The translations under genes and the position numbers were made by a program. A DNA stretch of 47,232 bases from NCBI GenBank assembly GCA_030602565.1, contig JAUVZL010000001.1, positions 1-47,232 of the forward strand. Reading direction: 5' to 3'. The notes under the pieces are model-generated. The model was not told where the DNA came from. It searched no databases and saw nothing but the letters and a program-made list of their open reading frames with translations. Below, in pieces: positions 23,098-40,746 of the stretch. Source of the DNA: Candidatus Stahliibacteriota bacterium (lineage in GTDB: Bacteria > Hydrothermota > Tepidihabitantia > SM23-42). Within the stretch, counting starts at the first letter, position 1; every line of letters begins with the position of its first letter.

Positions 23098-25296
23098 TCA
23101 GAACATACCAAAAGGATTGATCTGGAAGTGAGGTTCAAAGCCAGGTTGCTCACGATCCAGACCATAACCCATGTCAAAACCAAGGATCCCCATCATCGGT
23201 ATTTCAATGCGTACGCCCACACCAACTCCTCGATAGAGATTATGTAAGTTAACATCTTTGTACGACTCAAAAGCATTTCCTGCGTCATAGAACATCAGGA
23301 ATGATAGGCTTGGTGAAAGTTTCAGTTTAAGTTCTAAATTGTTTATTAACAGCGCACTACCGCCAACACGTCGACCGTCGAGTTCCGGGGAGAGGGAGCG
23401 ATCTGAATAACCTCGGACACCGTCATCACCGACGCCTCCAGCGTAAAACTTTTTATAGAGCGGTACTTCATCAACACTCGTTACAACGCCTGCCTTTATT
23501 CTGGCCATGAGCACAAATTTCCAGTATATAGGCAAGTAGGTCCGTGCCTCAAATGTGATTCGATTATAGTCAATGTTGGCGAACAAGAACTTTTTGGCGA
23601 TATCAGCGCGTAACGCCATATACGAACCGCTCGTCGGGTTAAAGATAAAGTCCCTTGAATCTCGCGTAAGCGTGAACGAGTTTGATACGGTCCATTTTGG
23701 TATCGTGTCATTAAAAAGACTATAACCACTACTCGGTGCCGTATATGAAGATGCAATATCGAGGATCCGAGTTCTTTCCGCGCGGAGCGTATAGCCGAGC
23801 CTGGTATAGTCCAGATAGAAAGGAAATGAAACGCGACCGGCAAAACCAATATCACGTTTTGTATAATAATCCCAGAATCGGTTTGTATAATATAGGTCGA
23901 GTCCAGCACTAGTCCTTGTGCTAAAAAGCCACGGTTCAGTATACCCGATTTGAAGATTCGTTAGTCTGCCACCTAACTCAATCTTGGTGTAGAGTCGCTG
24001 TCCTTTTCCCCACATGTTGGGGTGTGAGAGTTCAAAATAACCAGTCAATTTATCCTGGGCTGAGTATGAAATGCCGGCACCTACAGTGGCGACACCTTCT
24101 TTCTCAGTTAGTTTGTAAATCAAATCTATACGGCCGCTATCATCTGGGACTCCGGTTAAAGGTTCAACGTTATCAAAAAAACCGAGGTTGAAAACTTCCC
24201 GCAGGCTTCTAATAACGTCTGAACGTCGGAATATCTCTCCGGGGATAGTTCTTAGTTCTCGCCGGATGACGTTTTCTCGGGTGCTATAGTTACCAGTGAT
24301 TATCACGCGGTTGATGGTTGCCGGTGATGATTCTTCGATAACATATTCAATATCTATGAAACTATTACGGGCATTTTCATTTGGCGCGATTGAACAGTAT
24401 ATATAACCTTCGTCAGCATAGACTCCGAATAATTCCTGATAGGTTTCTTCAACTTTGCTGAGATCGTACACATCCCCGCTTTTGTATTTCAGTACTCTGC
24501 TGAGTTGTTGTGTACTGAATATTGAGTTGCCAGTAAAACTAACATCACCGACATAATATTGTTCATTCTCTTCGATATTTATTGTGATGATAAAGCGATC
24601 TGCCACGACTTCGATTATTGGCTCATCTATTTTTACATCCAAATATCCATTGTCTTTATAAAAGGATTTGATTTTTGCAACATCCTCTTCAAGTTTGACT
24701 TCATCTAACTTGCCACTGCGCAGAAACGCTTTAGGTTTGTTTTGCATCATCTTTGTAATCTTTGAATCAGCAAAAGCATTGTTCCCGGTAATCTCTATTT
24801 TGCCGATGCGTGGTTCAATACCTTCTTCAATAATGAAAAACAGATCGATTTTGTTGAGCGAGTCAATTATTGAACTATCCTGGACCGTCGTGTAATAGAA
24901 TGACTTTTCTTTATACAGATTTAGGATGTTAGTCTTTGCTTCGAATACGTCTCGGTCAGTAACTACCTGTCCAATTCTCCATTGGAGCTTTTTTCTCAGG
25001 TCTTTCTTTTTCACTTTGGCATTACCGATGAACTCAGGTCTGCTGTTAAGGAACGGTGCTTCTTCAACGGTGATGCTGAAAAAAATACCGTCACCTACTA
25101 TCGTTGTATCAATCGCAATATAGTTGAATAATCTAAGCCGAGAAAGATTTTGAAGCGCTTTTTGTATATCTGAGCTTCGAAATTCTTCGCCGGTTTTAAG
25201 CCCCGATGTTTCTATTATCAATTGTGGGTCAGCCCATTGCGCATCGACATCAATATCGATGATTTTGTAGCTAAGTAAAAAAAGGAGGAGGATCAC
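23098..25296 (-). CDS. bamA: Outer-membrane assembly factor BamA
   Basis: 732 residues: short signal-like start, about five POTRA domains (about 8-405; e.g. RPEFIGNAKVKKKDLRKKL, ITGNNAFADSKITKMM, FTGNSIFSTQQL), then a 16-strand Omp85 barrel with FYAGGVGDDGVRGY (VRGF/Y loop-6 motif) and a C-terminal phenylalanine. It inserts beta-barrels into the outer membrane, served by the Skp-like protein behind it. The GTG start overlaps the clpC stop by 4 nt (GTGA), so its expression is coupled to clpC. Confidence 0.96.
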   Translation of the reverse strand: MILLLFLLSYKIIDIDVDAQWADPQLIIETSGLKTGEEFRSSDIQKALQNLSRLRLFNYIAIDTTIVGDGIFFSITVEEAPFLNSRPEFIGNAKVKKKDLRKKLQWRIGQVVTDRDVFEAKTNILNLYKEKSFYYTTVQDSSIIDSLNKIDLFFIIEEGIEPRIGKIEITGNNAFADSKITKMMQNKPKAFLRSGKLDEVKLEEDVAKIKSFYKDNGYLDVKIDEPIIEVVADRFIITINIEENEQYYVGDVSFTGNSIFSTQQLSRVLKYKSGDVYDLSKVEETYQELFGVYADEGYIYCSIAPNENARNSFIDIEYVIEESSPATINRVIITGNYSTRENVIRRELRTIPGEIFRRSDVIRSLREVFNLGFFDNVEPLTGVPDDSGRIDLIYKLTEKEGVATVGAGISYSAQDKLTGYFELSHPNMWGKGQRLYTKIELGGRLTNLQIGYTEPWLFSTRTSAGLDLYYTNRFWDYYTKRDIGFAGRVSFPFYLDYTRLGYTLRAERTRILDIASSYTAPSSGYSLFNDTIPKWTVSNSFTLTRDSRDFIFNPTSGSYMALRADIAKKFLFANIDYNRITFEARTYLPIYWKFVLMARIKAGVVTSVDEVPLYKKFYAGGVGDDGVRGYSDRSLSPELDGRRVGGSALLINNLELKLKLSPSLSFLMFYDAGNAFESYKDVNLHNLYRGVGVGVRIEIPMMGILGFDMGYGLDREQPGFEPHFQINPFGMF

Positions 25297-35757: not shown

Positions 35758-35805
35758 TTGGATAGTCAATACTTACAGATGGCAAAACGGAGGAAAGGAG
35801 CATAT

Positions 35806-37344
35806 ATGAAGAAAGTCACAAGCGTAGTCTTTGCACTCGTCTTGATGGCGTCTGCACAGAACCTAATACAGAACCCGGGTTTTGAAACCTGGTCCGGAGG
35901 AATGCCTGACTATTGGGAAAAGGGTGATTCAATTTTCATTTTTCAGGAAGATGTAATCGTCCACACCGGTTATTTCAGCGCTAAAGATAGTCTCATAACA
36001 CAAGCTCAAGCAACCGCTGATTTGTATCAGGCAAGGTTCGTTGTCCAGGAGAATACGCAATACAATTTTGGTTTTTGGGTTTATGATAATGACCCAGCAG
36101 GAAGGGTACGACACGGTATTGACTGGTACCCATCTGGTTCAAGCTGGTCCACTGACTATTCAGTTGACTCAAACGCCTGGCAGGAGCTTTCCTTTACTGC
36201 TACCTCACCGAGCGGTGCAGATTCGGCGCTGGTAATGATAAGAGCCTACGATGTTGCAGTAAACTGGGATGGAGATGCAATATTCTACATTGATGATGTT
36301 TCCTTTGCAATGCCGGCAACTCAGCCACCGGTAATCATCAGAGTATGGCACATACCGATAAACCCTGGCTCAGGCGAGGTGGTCCATGTTTATGCTAAGG
36401 TTGTCGATGATGGTACTATTGTTGCCGACACACTATTCTATGGAATCAATAATCTTAATAGCCCAGTAAAAATGTCTCACACCAGCGTTAGTAATGACAC
36501 GTTCATGTTCCAGGTACCAGGACAGGCTGCAGGAGACACTGTTTTCTACTATCTGGAATTTATCGATAATGATGGCCTTGCTACTGTGTCAGATACCCAC
36601 GCCTTTTATGTCGGTGAAACTGGAATATCCATAAACGAAATCCTCTATGATACACCAGGCATTGACTCTGCCTGTTTTGTTGAGCTTTATGGTCCCGGGG
36701 GTGCCAGTCTTAACGGCTTCGTACTTGTTGGTGTAAACGGACTCAACGGAAGTGACTATGTGTCTATTGATTTAACTGGTAATTCCATACCAAACGATGG
36801 GTTTTTCGTTATCGCCCAGGATTCAGGAGTAGTTAATTATGATTTTGTCACCAGCAATGCTAACTTGCAGAACGGACCTGATAATGTTGAATTAAGGTTG
36901 AATAACGTTGCGGTCGATGCGTTGGGCTATGGTACACTCAACGGTTGGTTCTTTACCGGTGAATGGCGACCAGCTCCAGATGTGGGATGCAATCATTCTC
37001 TTGGTCGATACCCAGACGGATATGACACTGATGACAACTCTATTGATTTTCATGATTACACAGCGGTCACCCCTGGCGAACCCAACCCCCCATTCAGTGT
37101 GCATGAAAACAAAGGAGCGCAGATCAATCTGCCGGCCATCACGAATCCAGTTCGTACCGGTGTTCTCTTTGCTTCGTTGGTCAAGAGAATTGATGCTTAT
37201 CCTATTATTGTTTACAATCCCTTAGGACAAGTCGTCGTTGAAGTAGCAAATCCCAGAACAACAATGAATTTGCCGTGCGGTGTTTATTTTCTAAAACTAA
37301 AAAATGTCGGACCGGGTTGTCGAAAAGTAGTTATTGTCAAATGA
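35806..37344 (+). CDS. Secreted protein with CBM-like and lamin-tail domains and sorting-like C-terminus
   Basis: The start at ATG 35806 follows GGAGGAAAGGAG. Signal peptide MKKVTSVVFALVLMASAQ, then a carbohydrate-binding-module-like beta-sandwich (about 20-170, NLIQNPGFETWSGGMPDYWE), an Ig-like part (about 180-280), a lamin-tail domain (about 285-420; ISINEILYDTPGID, FVELYGPGGASLNGFVLVG), and a C-terminal module with VYNPLGQVVVEV and CGVYFLKL, related to the sorting domain of the first gene. Probably secreted and surface-retained. Possibly in the cheW-mcp-cheW transcript (48-bp gap). Confidence 0.8.
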   Translation: MKKVTSVVFALVLMASAQNLIQNPGFETWSGGMPDYWEKGDSIFIFQEDVIVHTGYFSAKDSLITQAQATADLYQARFVVQENTQYNFGFWVYDNDPAGRVRHGIDWYPSGSSWSTDYSVDSNAWQELSFTATSPSGADSALVMIRAYDVAVNWDGDAIFYIDDVSFAMPATQPPVIIRVWHIPINPGSGEVVHVYAKVVDDGTIVADTLFYGINNLNSPVKMSHTSVSNDTFMFQVPGQAAGDTVFYYLEFIDNDGLATVSDTHAFYVGETGISINEILYDTPGIDSACFVELYGPGGASLNGFVLVGVNGLNGSDYVSIDLTGNSIPNDGFFVIAQDSGVVNYDFVTSNANLQNGPDNVELRLNNVAVDALGYGTLNGWFFTGEWRPAPDVGCNHSLGRYPDGYDTDDNSIDFHDYTAVTPGEPNPPFSVHENKGAQINLPAITNPVRTGVLFASLVKRIDAYPIIVYNPLGQVVVEVANPRTTMNLPCGVYFLKLKNVGPGCRKVVIVK

Positions 37345-37362: not shown

Positions 37363-39573
37363 TTATTTAACTTCATATTCAGGCATTTTGTACAGAATGC
37401 CAGTAAGGACACTTGCTTTGTTAAAAAGCGAAATACCTCTACTCCCTGGGTAGACGACGATTTCAACATCCTCTATTATGCCTGATGCTTTTTTTGCGGC
37501 GTTAAGAGCATCGAGGAAATCGCCAGTTTCATCAACCAAACCGACTTCGCTAGCATGCGTGCCTGAGTAGATTCTACCCTGACCCAAGGAATCTACTTTG
37601 CGTTGAGTAAGTTTCCTTCCTTGAGCAACACGTTTTGTAAATTTATCGTAATACCATTTGACTTCTTTATCATATAGCGCCATTTCTTCTTCAGTATTAT
37701 GTCGCAACCCCCAGAAAGCATCACTGTGTTCACCTTTCTTAACATAATCCCACGTAATACCCAGCTTCTCATATAAGCCTTTGGTAATAAGGTTTACACC
37801 AAAAACACCAATCGATCCAGTTATCGTATTGTTATTTGCGTAAATTTTGTCGGCAAGGCATGCTATATAATAACCCCCTGAACCAGCAACATCACCCATT
37901 GACACAATTACTGGCTTGGTATCTGCACATTGCTTTACTGCATAAGCAATTTTTTCAGAAGCAAATGCATCACCGCCACCAGAATTAATTCTTAAAATCA
38001 CAGCTTTAATCTGGTCATCTTCAGCTATCCTATTGAATATCTCGGCATATTTTTCACCACCAATTAAACTCGATTGGAAAAAATCCGGTTTTCCCTGCCC
38101 AGGTACAATTGAACCTTCGGCAATTACTAATGCTATCTTCGGCTTGTCAGAATGCCATGTTTCATCAACGGTTTTTTCGCCAATGATGTCACTAAAATCA
38201 ATAACCGCCATTTTGCCGTATTGCCCATGCAAGTAATCGTCAAGCTCAAATTCATATAATACTGTATCAACTAAACCATGATTGAGTGCTTCCTCACTGT
38301 TAAAATAACCAGCGCGGTTAATCAACTCTTCTATTTCATCTACTGGTTTACCCCGCGCCTTAGATATTTTCTCTATTACCGGGTAATAGAGGTCATCAAG
38401 GAGCTTGGTTATCTGTTCGCGATCCGCCTCTGACATACTCGTCCTTTCGAGTGTTTCAATGGCGGACTTGTATTTGCCAACATGGCTTACATCAATTTCA
38501 AGACCTAATTTTTCCAGGGTACCTTTGATATAGGGTTTCCTCATTGCTAACCCCGGTATTTTTATGCTACCTAAAGGCGACAATAATATCTCATCACCGA
38601 CACAAGCCAAGCCATAAGTTAAAGTACTGTGATAGTTATCTGCAAAGAACACTATTTTTTTAGCTGAGTTCTTTAATCTGGTTAGAGTATTGCTCAATTC
38701 TTCAATCTGAGCAGCACCAAGCTTGCTATTCTTTACCTTTACGACCACAACATGGATATCATCTCGATCTTTCAAAGATTCCAGATTATTGAGTAATTTT
38801 GTATAGCCTTGTTCCGCTTTTAACGGAATACCAAAAAAAGATTTCCTTCTGATTTCTGGGTAATCACCACTCAGGGTGAGGACTGTAATCTTGTTTTTTT
38901 TTGGTATAAGTGTCTCGTATGTTTGTGCTGACAACAGAAGTCCACCACTGAATTTCTTGTCTTGTTCGCAATATGACCCAGCGATTTTGATTTTTCCAAA
39001 GGAAAGCTCAAGACCAGTATTCCATTTGAAATCTTCGTCCGCGCGAAAATATAATTTCATGCCCTTGACCGGCATAAACATGGCACCCCAATAATAAGTA
39101 AATATGCTGTCGATCCCCTCGTATTCAAGATCACAACTTAGTGTAAGATATTCCTTAAAAGGTCTAATACTTATACCGCCGAACATGTGGTATTTTTTAC
39201 CGATTGTTGTCTTATAACCTAGGGCAAGTTTTTTAGTTACTCGAGTTTCCACACCAAAGATGTGCTTTGAAATATCGCCGAATTGGTAGGCGTATCCAAA
39301 AGAAAAAGCACCCGGTAATTTATATCCAGAACCTATTTCATAATGGGTAGAATCATCGGTGATCTTTTTCATTCCCAGTCCCAGGTTTGCTAATGAGATA
39401 CCGGCTACAATGATGTTTGGGTTCGGTTGATAAGTACCAAAAATCTCAGCACCTTTATTTATGCCTAATCCAGCCGGATTCGAGAAAACACTGAGCGAAC
39501 GCATTGGCAGTGTGCTAAAATTCGCTTCATAAAAAGGGCTAGTTGTTATCATCAAAATGAGCATGAGTGTCAT
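37363..39573 (-). CDS. sppA: SppA (67K-type S49 peptidase) with N-terminal outer-membrane-barrel-like extension
   Basis: 736 residues, clearly longer than usual 67K SppA (about 580-620). The last about 500 carry both S49 halves: the general-base Lys in VGKYKSAIETL (about 371) and the nucleophile Ser in GDVAGSGGYYIA (about 564) with NTITGSIGVFG. The first about 230 residues have a weak leader, then FSNPAGLGINKGAEIFG and repeated glycine/aromatic strands (FSFGYAYQF, KLALGYKTTIGKKYHMFGG), as in FadL/PorV-type barrels. It degrades signal peptides or membrane proteins, here perhaps tethered to the outer membrane. AGGAGG precedes the ATG. Confidence 0.88.
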   Translation of the reverse strand: MTLMLILMITTSPFYEANFSTLPMRSLSVFSNPAGLGINKGAEIFGTYQPNPNIIVAGISLANLGLGMKKITDDSTHYEIGSGYKLPGAFSFGYAYQFGDISKHIFGVETRVTKKLALGYKTTIGKKYHMFGGISIRPFKEYLTLSCDLEYEGIDSIFTYYWGAMFMPVKGMKLYFRADEDFKWNTGLELSFGKIKIAGSYCEQDKKFSGGLLLSAQTYETLIPKKNKITVLTLSGDYPEIRRKSFFGIPLKAEQGYTKLLNNLESLKDRDDIHVVVVKVKNSKLGAAQIEELSNTLTRLKNSAKKIVFFADNYHSTLTYGLACVGDEILLSPLGSIKIPGLAMRKPYIKGTLEKLGLEIDVSHVGKYKSAIETLERTSMSEADREQITKLLDDLYYPVIEKISKARGKPVDEIEELINRAGYFNSEEALNHGLVDTVLYEFELDDYLHGQYGKMAVIDFSDIIGEKTVDETWHSDKPKIALVIAEGSIVPGQGKPDFFQSSLIGGEKYAEIFNRIAEDDQIKAVILRINSGGGDAFASEKIAYAVKQCADTKPVIVSMGDVAGSGGYYIACLADKIYANNNTITGSIGVFGVNLITKGLYEKLGITWDYVKKGEHSDAFWGLRHNTEEEMALYDKEVKWYYDKFTKRVAQGRKLTQRKVDSLGQGRIYSGTHASEVGLVDETGDFLDALNAAKKASGIIEDVEIVVYPGSRGISLFNKASVLTGILYKMPEYEVK

Positions 39574-39590
39574 AATTCCTCCTTTTGGTT

Positions 39591-39635: not shown

Positions 39636-40478
39636 TTAATTTAAAGCATTCATGGCTTGTTTCCAAGCTTCTTTCGGAACATACCGGTACGGTGCTTTTA
39701 TGAATTCCGCGGCCGTGAATATTAGGGGTTTAGACGCTTTGTATTGATTCATCGGGTTGATAAGAATACCCTGAGTTTGTTCAACTATTTGAGGGGCACG
39801 GCATTGATAAGGGAACCTTAAAATGACGCCTGGTAAATAATCATTGGCAAAGATATTATCCCAGATCAACAAAGGTCTTTTCATTAATTCGGTTATCTTT
39901 TTTAGATGACTTAAATCAATCCTTTTAGAGACGACTTTTGGGCCGGTCCAAAATATCATTATGGATTTGTCTAGCTCTTTTGTAATCGTCTCTATATACC
40001 TGGTTTTCCTGAAACCCCGATATTGAGTGGGACAAAAAAACAACGTGGGTCTTGGGATTTTCTTCCTAAGAAAATATAAAAGCTCATTAGCAGTGGCGGC
40101 CTGCTTTTCTGCAGTTTTCTTATCCACTCTTACAGTAATATCATCATAAAAGAGACTGAACTGGGATATACCGATTTCAACCATTGAGTGTATCTTGTTT
40201 ATGATTCTTTTTGCGTCTGGCTTTGACATAGGGGAGAGGGCGTAATTGAAGTGCACGTTTCGAGCAGAACTAAGCGCATTCAGTTTTTTGAATTCCTTCA
40301 TTTTTTTTGCCGGATAAAGACAAAGCCACTTTTTTCGATGGTAGATATCCTTTTTTGGCCCATATACATATGTATTAAGACCAAGTGCCGAAAGAAATTC
40401 TATCAGATCAAGGCGCTCGCGGAAAGTATAGGGTTTACGATAAAAACCTTCAACAACGCCAAAGAACTTACTTCCCAT
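39636..40478 (-). CDS. GH84-type beta-N-acetylglucosaminidase domain protein (no signal peptide)
   Basis: About 280 residues consisting only of the NAGidase/GH84 catalytic barrel: FFGVVEGFYRKPYTFRER, LGLNTYVYGPKKDIYHRKKW, the catalytic Asp pair in SLFYDDI (about 112-113), FFCPTQYRG, FWTGPKVVS and LLIWDNIFANDY. The family hydrolyses terminal beta-GlcNAc (O-GlcNAcase, hyaluronidase-like enzymes) through substrate assistance. ATG 40478 directly precedes the domain, overlapping the lipoprotein gene by 11 nt; the longer frame adds nothing family-like. No export signal is seen, so it is probably cytoplasmic, unusual for bacterial GH84. Confidence 0.85.
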   Translation of the reverse strand: MGSKFFGVVEGFYRKPYTFRERLDLIEFLSALGLNTYVYGPKKDIYHRKKWLCLYPAKKMKEFKKLNALSSARNVHFNYALSPMSKPDAKRIINKIHSMVEIGISQFSLFYDDITVRVDKKTAEKQAATANELLYFLRKKIPRPTLFFCPTQYRGFRKTRYIETITKELDKSIMIFWTGPKVVSKRIDLSHLKKITELMKRPLLIWDNIFANDYLPGVILRFPYQCRAPQIVEQTQGILINPMNQYKASKPLIFTAAEFIKAPYRYVPKEAWKQAMNALN

Positions 40479-40746
40479 CTTTGAGTTCTTGCAGGAGTTC
40501 AAGCCATACTTCAGGTTCATCAGTCAACTCAGCCAATGTTTTGTTGAGGTCTAAACCATATCTCTTGCTCAGAGCTCTAACCGAATCCTCAATCCATGGT
40601 TCTTGACCGATCCTATCTCTTAACGCTTTTTCTGCCTTTATGTATTCAACGAGGCCAGTATGTGTTTTTTTTCTGGTGCAACCGCAGAGCAAAAGGGATA
40701 GGATTATCAAATAGGTGATGAATGAATATCGTCGCGTCAGCGCCAC
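40468..40746 (-). CDS. Small lipoprotein
   Basis: 92 residues with a basic start, hydrophobic stretch and lipobox LLCGC (Cys about 23), then a short helical charged domain (EYIKAEKALRDRIGQEPWIE). GTG start at 40746, overlapping the sppA stop by 10 nt. Lies between the 36K-type sppA and the GH84 gene in one transcript. Function unknown. Confidence 0.75.
   Translation of the reverse strand: MALTRRYSFITYLIILSLLLCGCTRKKTHTGLVEYIKAEKALRDRIGQEPWIEDSVRALSKRYGLDLNKTLAELTDEPEVWLELLQELKDGK

Follow-up and report, generated by a model that had tools for sequence, protein, structure and literature searches.

An SppA-type peptidase fused to a predicted outer-membrane β-barrel in Candidatus Stahliibacteriota and several other bacterial phyla

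Introduction

The SppA peptidase is usually regarded as a protein of the inner membrane with the task of clearing signal peptides. The locus considered here, part of a 47,232-nucleotide stretch of contig JAUVZL010000001.1 from a Candidatus Stahliibacteriota bacterium (the window), raises the question of whether some SppA enzymes reside in the outer membrane instead. An earlier note made from the DNA alone had described one gene product of the window as some 230 residues of barrel-like sequence with an NPAGLG hallmark, followed by a full two-domain SppA with both catalytic residues, and had placed it in the outer membrane or tethered between the two membranes, i.e. in a topology not known from SppA. 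We have followed up this proposal with structure models, profile comparisons and searches across bacterial phyla.

Results and discussion

The gene and its surroundings

According to the ORF listing, ATG is the start codon of the fusion ORF (37363–39573, minus strand), and the features of its product are summarized in table 1. The host is a diderm, with two Omp85 genes (one inside the window, a BamA-type match at 23146–24018) and the SprA translocon. The window also contains a small SppA gene; the hydropathy of its product peaks at residue 6, with a value of 3.24. The two SppA genes are separated by an ORF (39636–40520) for a GH84-type β-N-acetylglucosaminidase (NAGidase, E 1.4e-80), which covers the GlcNAcase NCBIfam model only in part. 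In the neighbour on the other side of the fusion, ORF 35758–37344, a CBM_4_9 domain is accompanied by a lamin-tail match below threshold and by a type IX sorting tail that is borderline.

Table 1. Features of the barrel–SppA fusion gene and the associated small SppA gene (window coordinates; residues refer to the fusion protein).
Feature	Coordinates	Strand	Basis
Barrel–SppA fusion gene, 736 aa	37363..39573	−	ORF, domain matches, structure models, phylum distribution
Ribosome-binding site AGGAGG, upstream of the fusion ATG	39577..39583	−	direct sequence reading
Putative short hydrophobic export signal without basic n-region, residues 1–12	39538..39573	−	sequence
N-terminal plug with NPAGLG motif, residues 13–41	39451..39537	−	conservation; both models
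Predicted 14-strand β-barrel, residues 42–215	38929..39450	−	two agreeing models, Foldseek, strand alternation
Short linker joining the last strand of the barrel to the first of SppA, residues 216–227	38893..38928	−	full-length model
SppA N-terminal domain, residues 228–470	38164..38892	−	Pfam, TIGR00705, full-length model, Foldseek
Catalytic Lys369 (E. coli K209)	38467..38469	−	phmmer alignment; conservation in relatives
SppA C-terminal domain, residues 475–711	37441..38151	−	Pfam, TIGR00705, full-length model, Foldseek
Catalytic Ser565 (E. coli S409)	37879..37881	−	phmmer alignment; conservation in relatives
Small SppA, 275 aa, ordinary inner-membrane type with N-terminal transmembrane helix	40737..41564	−	TIGR00706 231.6 bits; hydropathy maximum

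A two-domain SppA with a barrel in place of the helix

Residues 251–713 of the fusion protein match the two-domain SppA model TIGR00705 with 338.9 bits (cut-off 311.45), and the Pfam S49 family is matched twice. In a phmmer alignment with E. coli SppA, K369 and S565 fall on chain positions 184 and 384 of 3bez, corresponding to K209 and S409 in the full numbering, and this dyad is invariant in all 31 aligned relatives. The whole model, when compared with the E. coli structures 3bf0 and 3bez by Foldseek, shows the SppA fold with target TM-scores of 0.85–0.87. Judging from the sequence, the protein is a complete two-domain SppA with a conserved Ser/Lys dyad, and proteolytic activity is predicted. 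It shares with E. coli SppA (protease IV; MEROPS S49) the two tandem S49 domains, the fold and the positions of the dyad; the E. coli enzyme, however, has an N-terminal inner-membrane helix where the fusion has a 14-strand barrel and a predicted outer-membrane site. As TIGR00705 scores the fusion as an ordinary SppA, annotation pipelines hide this difference. The small Bacillus-type SppA (TIGR00706; 3rst, 4kwb), of which the host has a copy in the window, possesses the same catalytic domain, but is single-domain, helix-anchored and devoid of a barrel; it is reported to be an octamer with active sites built between protomers (PMC7568657).

No curated family matches residues 1–249 above its cut-off, the nearest being PorV_fam (18.6 of 90 bits) and Porin_4 (14.8 of 27 bits). 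Structure prediction is more informative. AlphaFold2 models of the barrel part alone (23 sequences; pLDDT 76, pTM 0.70) and of the full-length fusion (31 sequences; pLDDT 84.9, pTM 0.81) contain the same 14 antiparallel strands within residues 42–215, as well as a short helix at residues 35–38. The NPAGLG motif occupies residues 32–37, and its N32 and P33 are invariant in 31 of 31 relatives. Every Foldseek match to the barrel with E ≤ 0.001 is a membrane β-barrel (mainly porins and VDAC/TOM40 types, and designed barrels), with the best TM-scores, modest as they are, reaching 0.54 for both the 14-strand Omp33 and FadL. An independent, alignment-based check agrees: the in/out hydrophobic alternation of the strands averages 2.63, about 6 sd over the mean of within-strand permutations (2000 draws; mean 1.16, sd 0.23, maximum 2.05). 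Both models thus yield a barrel, and a globular N-terminus was rejected on these grounds. According to these predictions, the N-terminus is a 14-strand barrel of the outer-membrane type. The earlier note was, indeed, right about the order of the parts and the presence of both catalytic residues; only the extent of the barrel needs refining, as it extends to about residue 215, with a linker of no more than ~12 residues behind it.

The fusion lacks a transmembrane helix, its hydropathy maximum being only 1.32, compared with values of at least 1.6 in 70 of 73 unfused two-domain SppAs. The barrel occupies the position of the helix in other SppAs, about 12 residues from the first SppA strand. Signal peptides of fusion homologues elsewhere are more canonical than that of the window protein. 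The barrel, the homologues' signal sequences and the missing helix together support the predicted placement in the outer membrane and, with it, a topology unlike that of known SppAs, which sit in the inner membrane by an N-terminal helix. Tethering between both membranes, also envisaged in the earlier note, finds no support, a second membrane anchor being absent. It might be argued that the protein is not an outer-membrane one at all and that an unrelated all-β domain is attached to an SppA of the periplasm or inner membrane; the export signal is short and unusual in the home family (the family of the window's genome), and the locations are predicted. However, the 14 amphipathic hairpin strands, the plug motif, fold matches exclusively to membrane barrels, canonical signal peptides in distant homologues and the absence of an inner-membrane helix make this very unlikely.

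Relationship to PorV-type barrels and type IX secretion

Barrels of the PorV/PorQ family (NF033709, PF19572) and the FadL type share with the fusion the N-terminal NPAGL motif, 14 strands and an N-terminal plug, but the fusion barrel is much shorter (~215 residues), scores below the family cut-off and has a protease attached. Similarity to FadL (2r89) is limited to a Foldseek match that is not the top one (query TM 0.54, rmsd 10.3), and there is no FadL Pfam match. When aligned with same-phylum PorV by hhalign, the barrels of families f6, f7 and f9 give 91.5% and those of f1/f2 58.8%, in both cases over short stretches, with reversed controls at no more than 5.4%.

The host genome has a large type IX secretion system, comprising SprA, 18 PorV-family matches and about 130 sorting-tail matches. 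SprA is present in 61 of 61 relatives, and the neighbouring ORF has the borderline sorting tail mentioned above. These circumstances, along with the weak profile similarity to PorV, would fit a processing role in the type IX system, with a PorV-like shuttle barrel joined to a cargo-trimming peptidase. We nevertheless rank this explanation low and consider it improbable: many SprA-bearing relatives have lost the SppA part, the barrel lies far under the PorV cut-off (18.6 versus 90 bits for NF033709), and fusions are common in Myxococcota, which are not known to have a type IX secretion system.

Distribution and origin of the fusion

The architecture is widespread. Within the window's phylum, full-length matches are present in 96 of 147 genomes, which represent 29 of 37 families, and inspection by eye revealed the same plug and barrel in eight further families. 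Fusions occur in at least 50 of 96 sampled Myxococcota (counted from listings as matches extending into the barrel in a frame of at least 780 aa) and, as counted from the listings of phylum searches, in 26 of 49 Calditrichota and 21 of 61 Neomarinimicrobiota genomes, as well as in one Poribacterium. A scan of named genomes likewise recovered them in Poribacteria, Calditrichota, Neomarinimicrobiota, Myxococcota and WOR-3, whereas the SppAs of the sampled Bacteroidota, Cyanobacteriota and Verrucomicrobiota are helix types and those of Planctomycetota signal-peptide types. Scanning with a single protein gave no matches; it was the alignment-based scan of genome contigs that found the fusions. We did not find a description of a barrel–SppA fusion in the open-access literature (including that on S49 architectures and on Myxococcus SppA and outer-membrane proteomes), where a paywalled report could be missed. 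The architecture is real and conserved, and within its known protease family it represents a variant that the searchable open literature does not describe.

This distribution also bears on whether the gene is an artefact. A separate barrel ORF in a relative, G003, might suggest that two genes were wrongly joined during assembly or are accidentally read through, but 96 genomes of the phylum, as well as members of other phyla, show the single frame, and the G003 state is a clean secondary deletion. A misjoined gene was therefore rejected, and we attach practically no weight to this explanation.

The barrels of fusions from several phyla are, by profile comparison, homologous: f1/f2 versus f6/f7/f9 gives 99.4%, Myxococcota versus f6/f7/f9 99.1% over 245 columns, and t810 versus Caldithrix 100%. 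Reversed controls against unreversed profiles reach at most 5.4% (two reversed profiles match each other, as they must). In the SppA tree, helix-anchored types form one supported clade, and the fused ones fall outside it, among soluble types. The latter, from Planctomycetota and Poribacteria, stand near the fusion but have only an export signal and no barrel. The tree needs five label changes, and several of its rows are long. The fusion may have a single origin, with which the SppA tree is compatible. A longer fusion (~810 aa), present in f2, G003 and G010, has its nearest counterparts in Calditrichota for barrel and SppA alike, and because both of its parts resemble the Calditrichota form, it was probably acquired by transfer. 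Such a second fusion of ~810 aa is present at loci L041, L042, L044 and L045, and the genomes G003, G010, G023 and G025 have it in addition to a barrel-only gene.

Loss of the SppA part in the home family

About 15 of the 23 home-family genomes, several of them single-contig assemblies, show a barrel-only state, with the barrel gene at the same locus or elsewhere. The case is clearest in the sister species G003, whose barrel is 89% identical to that of the window. Here (L032, 5570–6480) a deletion of 1411 bp has removed the SppA part; it runs from TACAAAAT to TACAAAAT, a pair of 8-bp direct repeats. Two 2-bp homopolymer deletions are present as well, and the remaining barrel gene encodes 235 aa in an open frame (dN 0.052, dS 0.18). 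The barrel tree requires 4–6 changes of state, implying that SppA was lost more than once or that paralogy followed its loss. Two further genomes, G002 and G013, have the fusion plus a separate barrel.

As the SppA part is missing from so many genomes, it is expendable in the home family and its activity there is non-essential. The barrel, being kept where SppA is lost, probably has a role of its own besides anchoring, and this weighs most against viewing it as an anchor alone. It can be proposed that the function resides chiefly in the barrel: this would be a small channel or carrier transporting peptides or other compounds, and an optional SppA would cut incoming material or clear the pore. 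The barrel-only relatives speak for this, as does the open barrel frame left in G003 after the deletion; the association of the fusion in f6, f7 and f9 with genes for a ferredoxin, a BFD/sarcosine-oxidase A3 protein and a DAO-type oxidoreductase would fit amino-acid use. On the other hand, the dyad never varies where SppA is present, several phyla have retained SppA, and the oxidoreductase neighbours are limited to a few families. We thus regard this alternative as possible, though somewhat doubtful.

Putative function

The explanation we consider likely is that the fusion is an SppA-type serine protease facing the periplasm, with its N-terminal FadL/PorV-style barrel of 14 strands as an outer-membrane anchor in place of the inner-membrane helix. 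Both its location and its substrate are inferred. Signal sequences and Omp85 genes suggest that the protein would be exported via Sec and its barrel folded by the BAM machinery. Since the number of strands is even and the last strand leads directly into SppA, both ends of the barrel would be periplasmic in the model, and SppA would lie on the periplasmic side, no more than about 12 residues from the outer membrane. The SppA part may assemble like E. coli SppA; some assembly is to be expected, as the active sites of Bacillus SppA lie between protomers (PMC7568657). On the inner face of the outer membrane the enzyme would break down peptides, together with polypeptides that are damaged or left over, and the small helix-anchored SppA would do the same, complementary job at the inner membrane. 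A further step, in which the barrel serves as a conduit delivering incoming peptides to the SppA chamber at its periplasmic mouth, would make the fusion a one-chain device for peptide import and digestion at the outer membrane in several phyla, but we deem this unlikely.

Because the barrel–SppA design recurs in several phyla, the outer membrane is probably the site of action of an entire class of SppA enzymes. If the large two-domain SppA class that is common in Myxococcota, Calditrichota and several uncultured phyla does sit there, signal-peptide clearance cannot cover its job. Sister genomes in which the same barrel occurs with and without the protease represent a natural experiment, and cultured Myxococcota would allow direct testing of location and substrate.

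Gene neighbourhood offers no clue to function that is conserved across the phylum, only clusters at the family level. In f6, f7 and f9 (L166–L171) the fusion is located between a 4Fe-4S ferredoxin gene and genes for the BFD/sarcosine-oxidase-A3 and DAO oxidoreductase proteins (the BFD gene was not seen beside the fusion in L171). In family f5 (L165, 544–4894) the fusion gene overlaps by 8 bases with the start of a gene for an LptD_2 outer-membrane protein.
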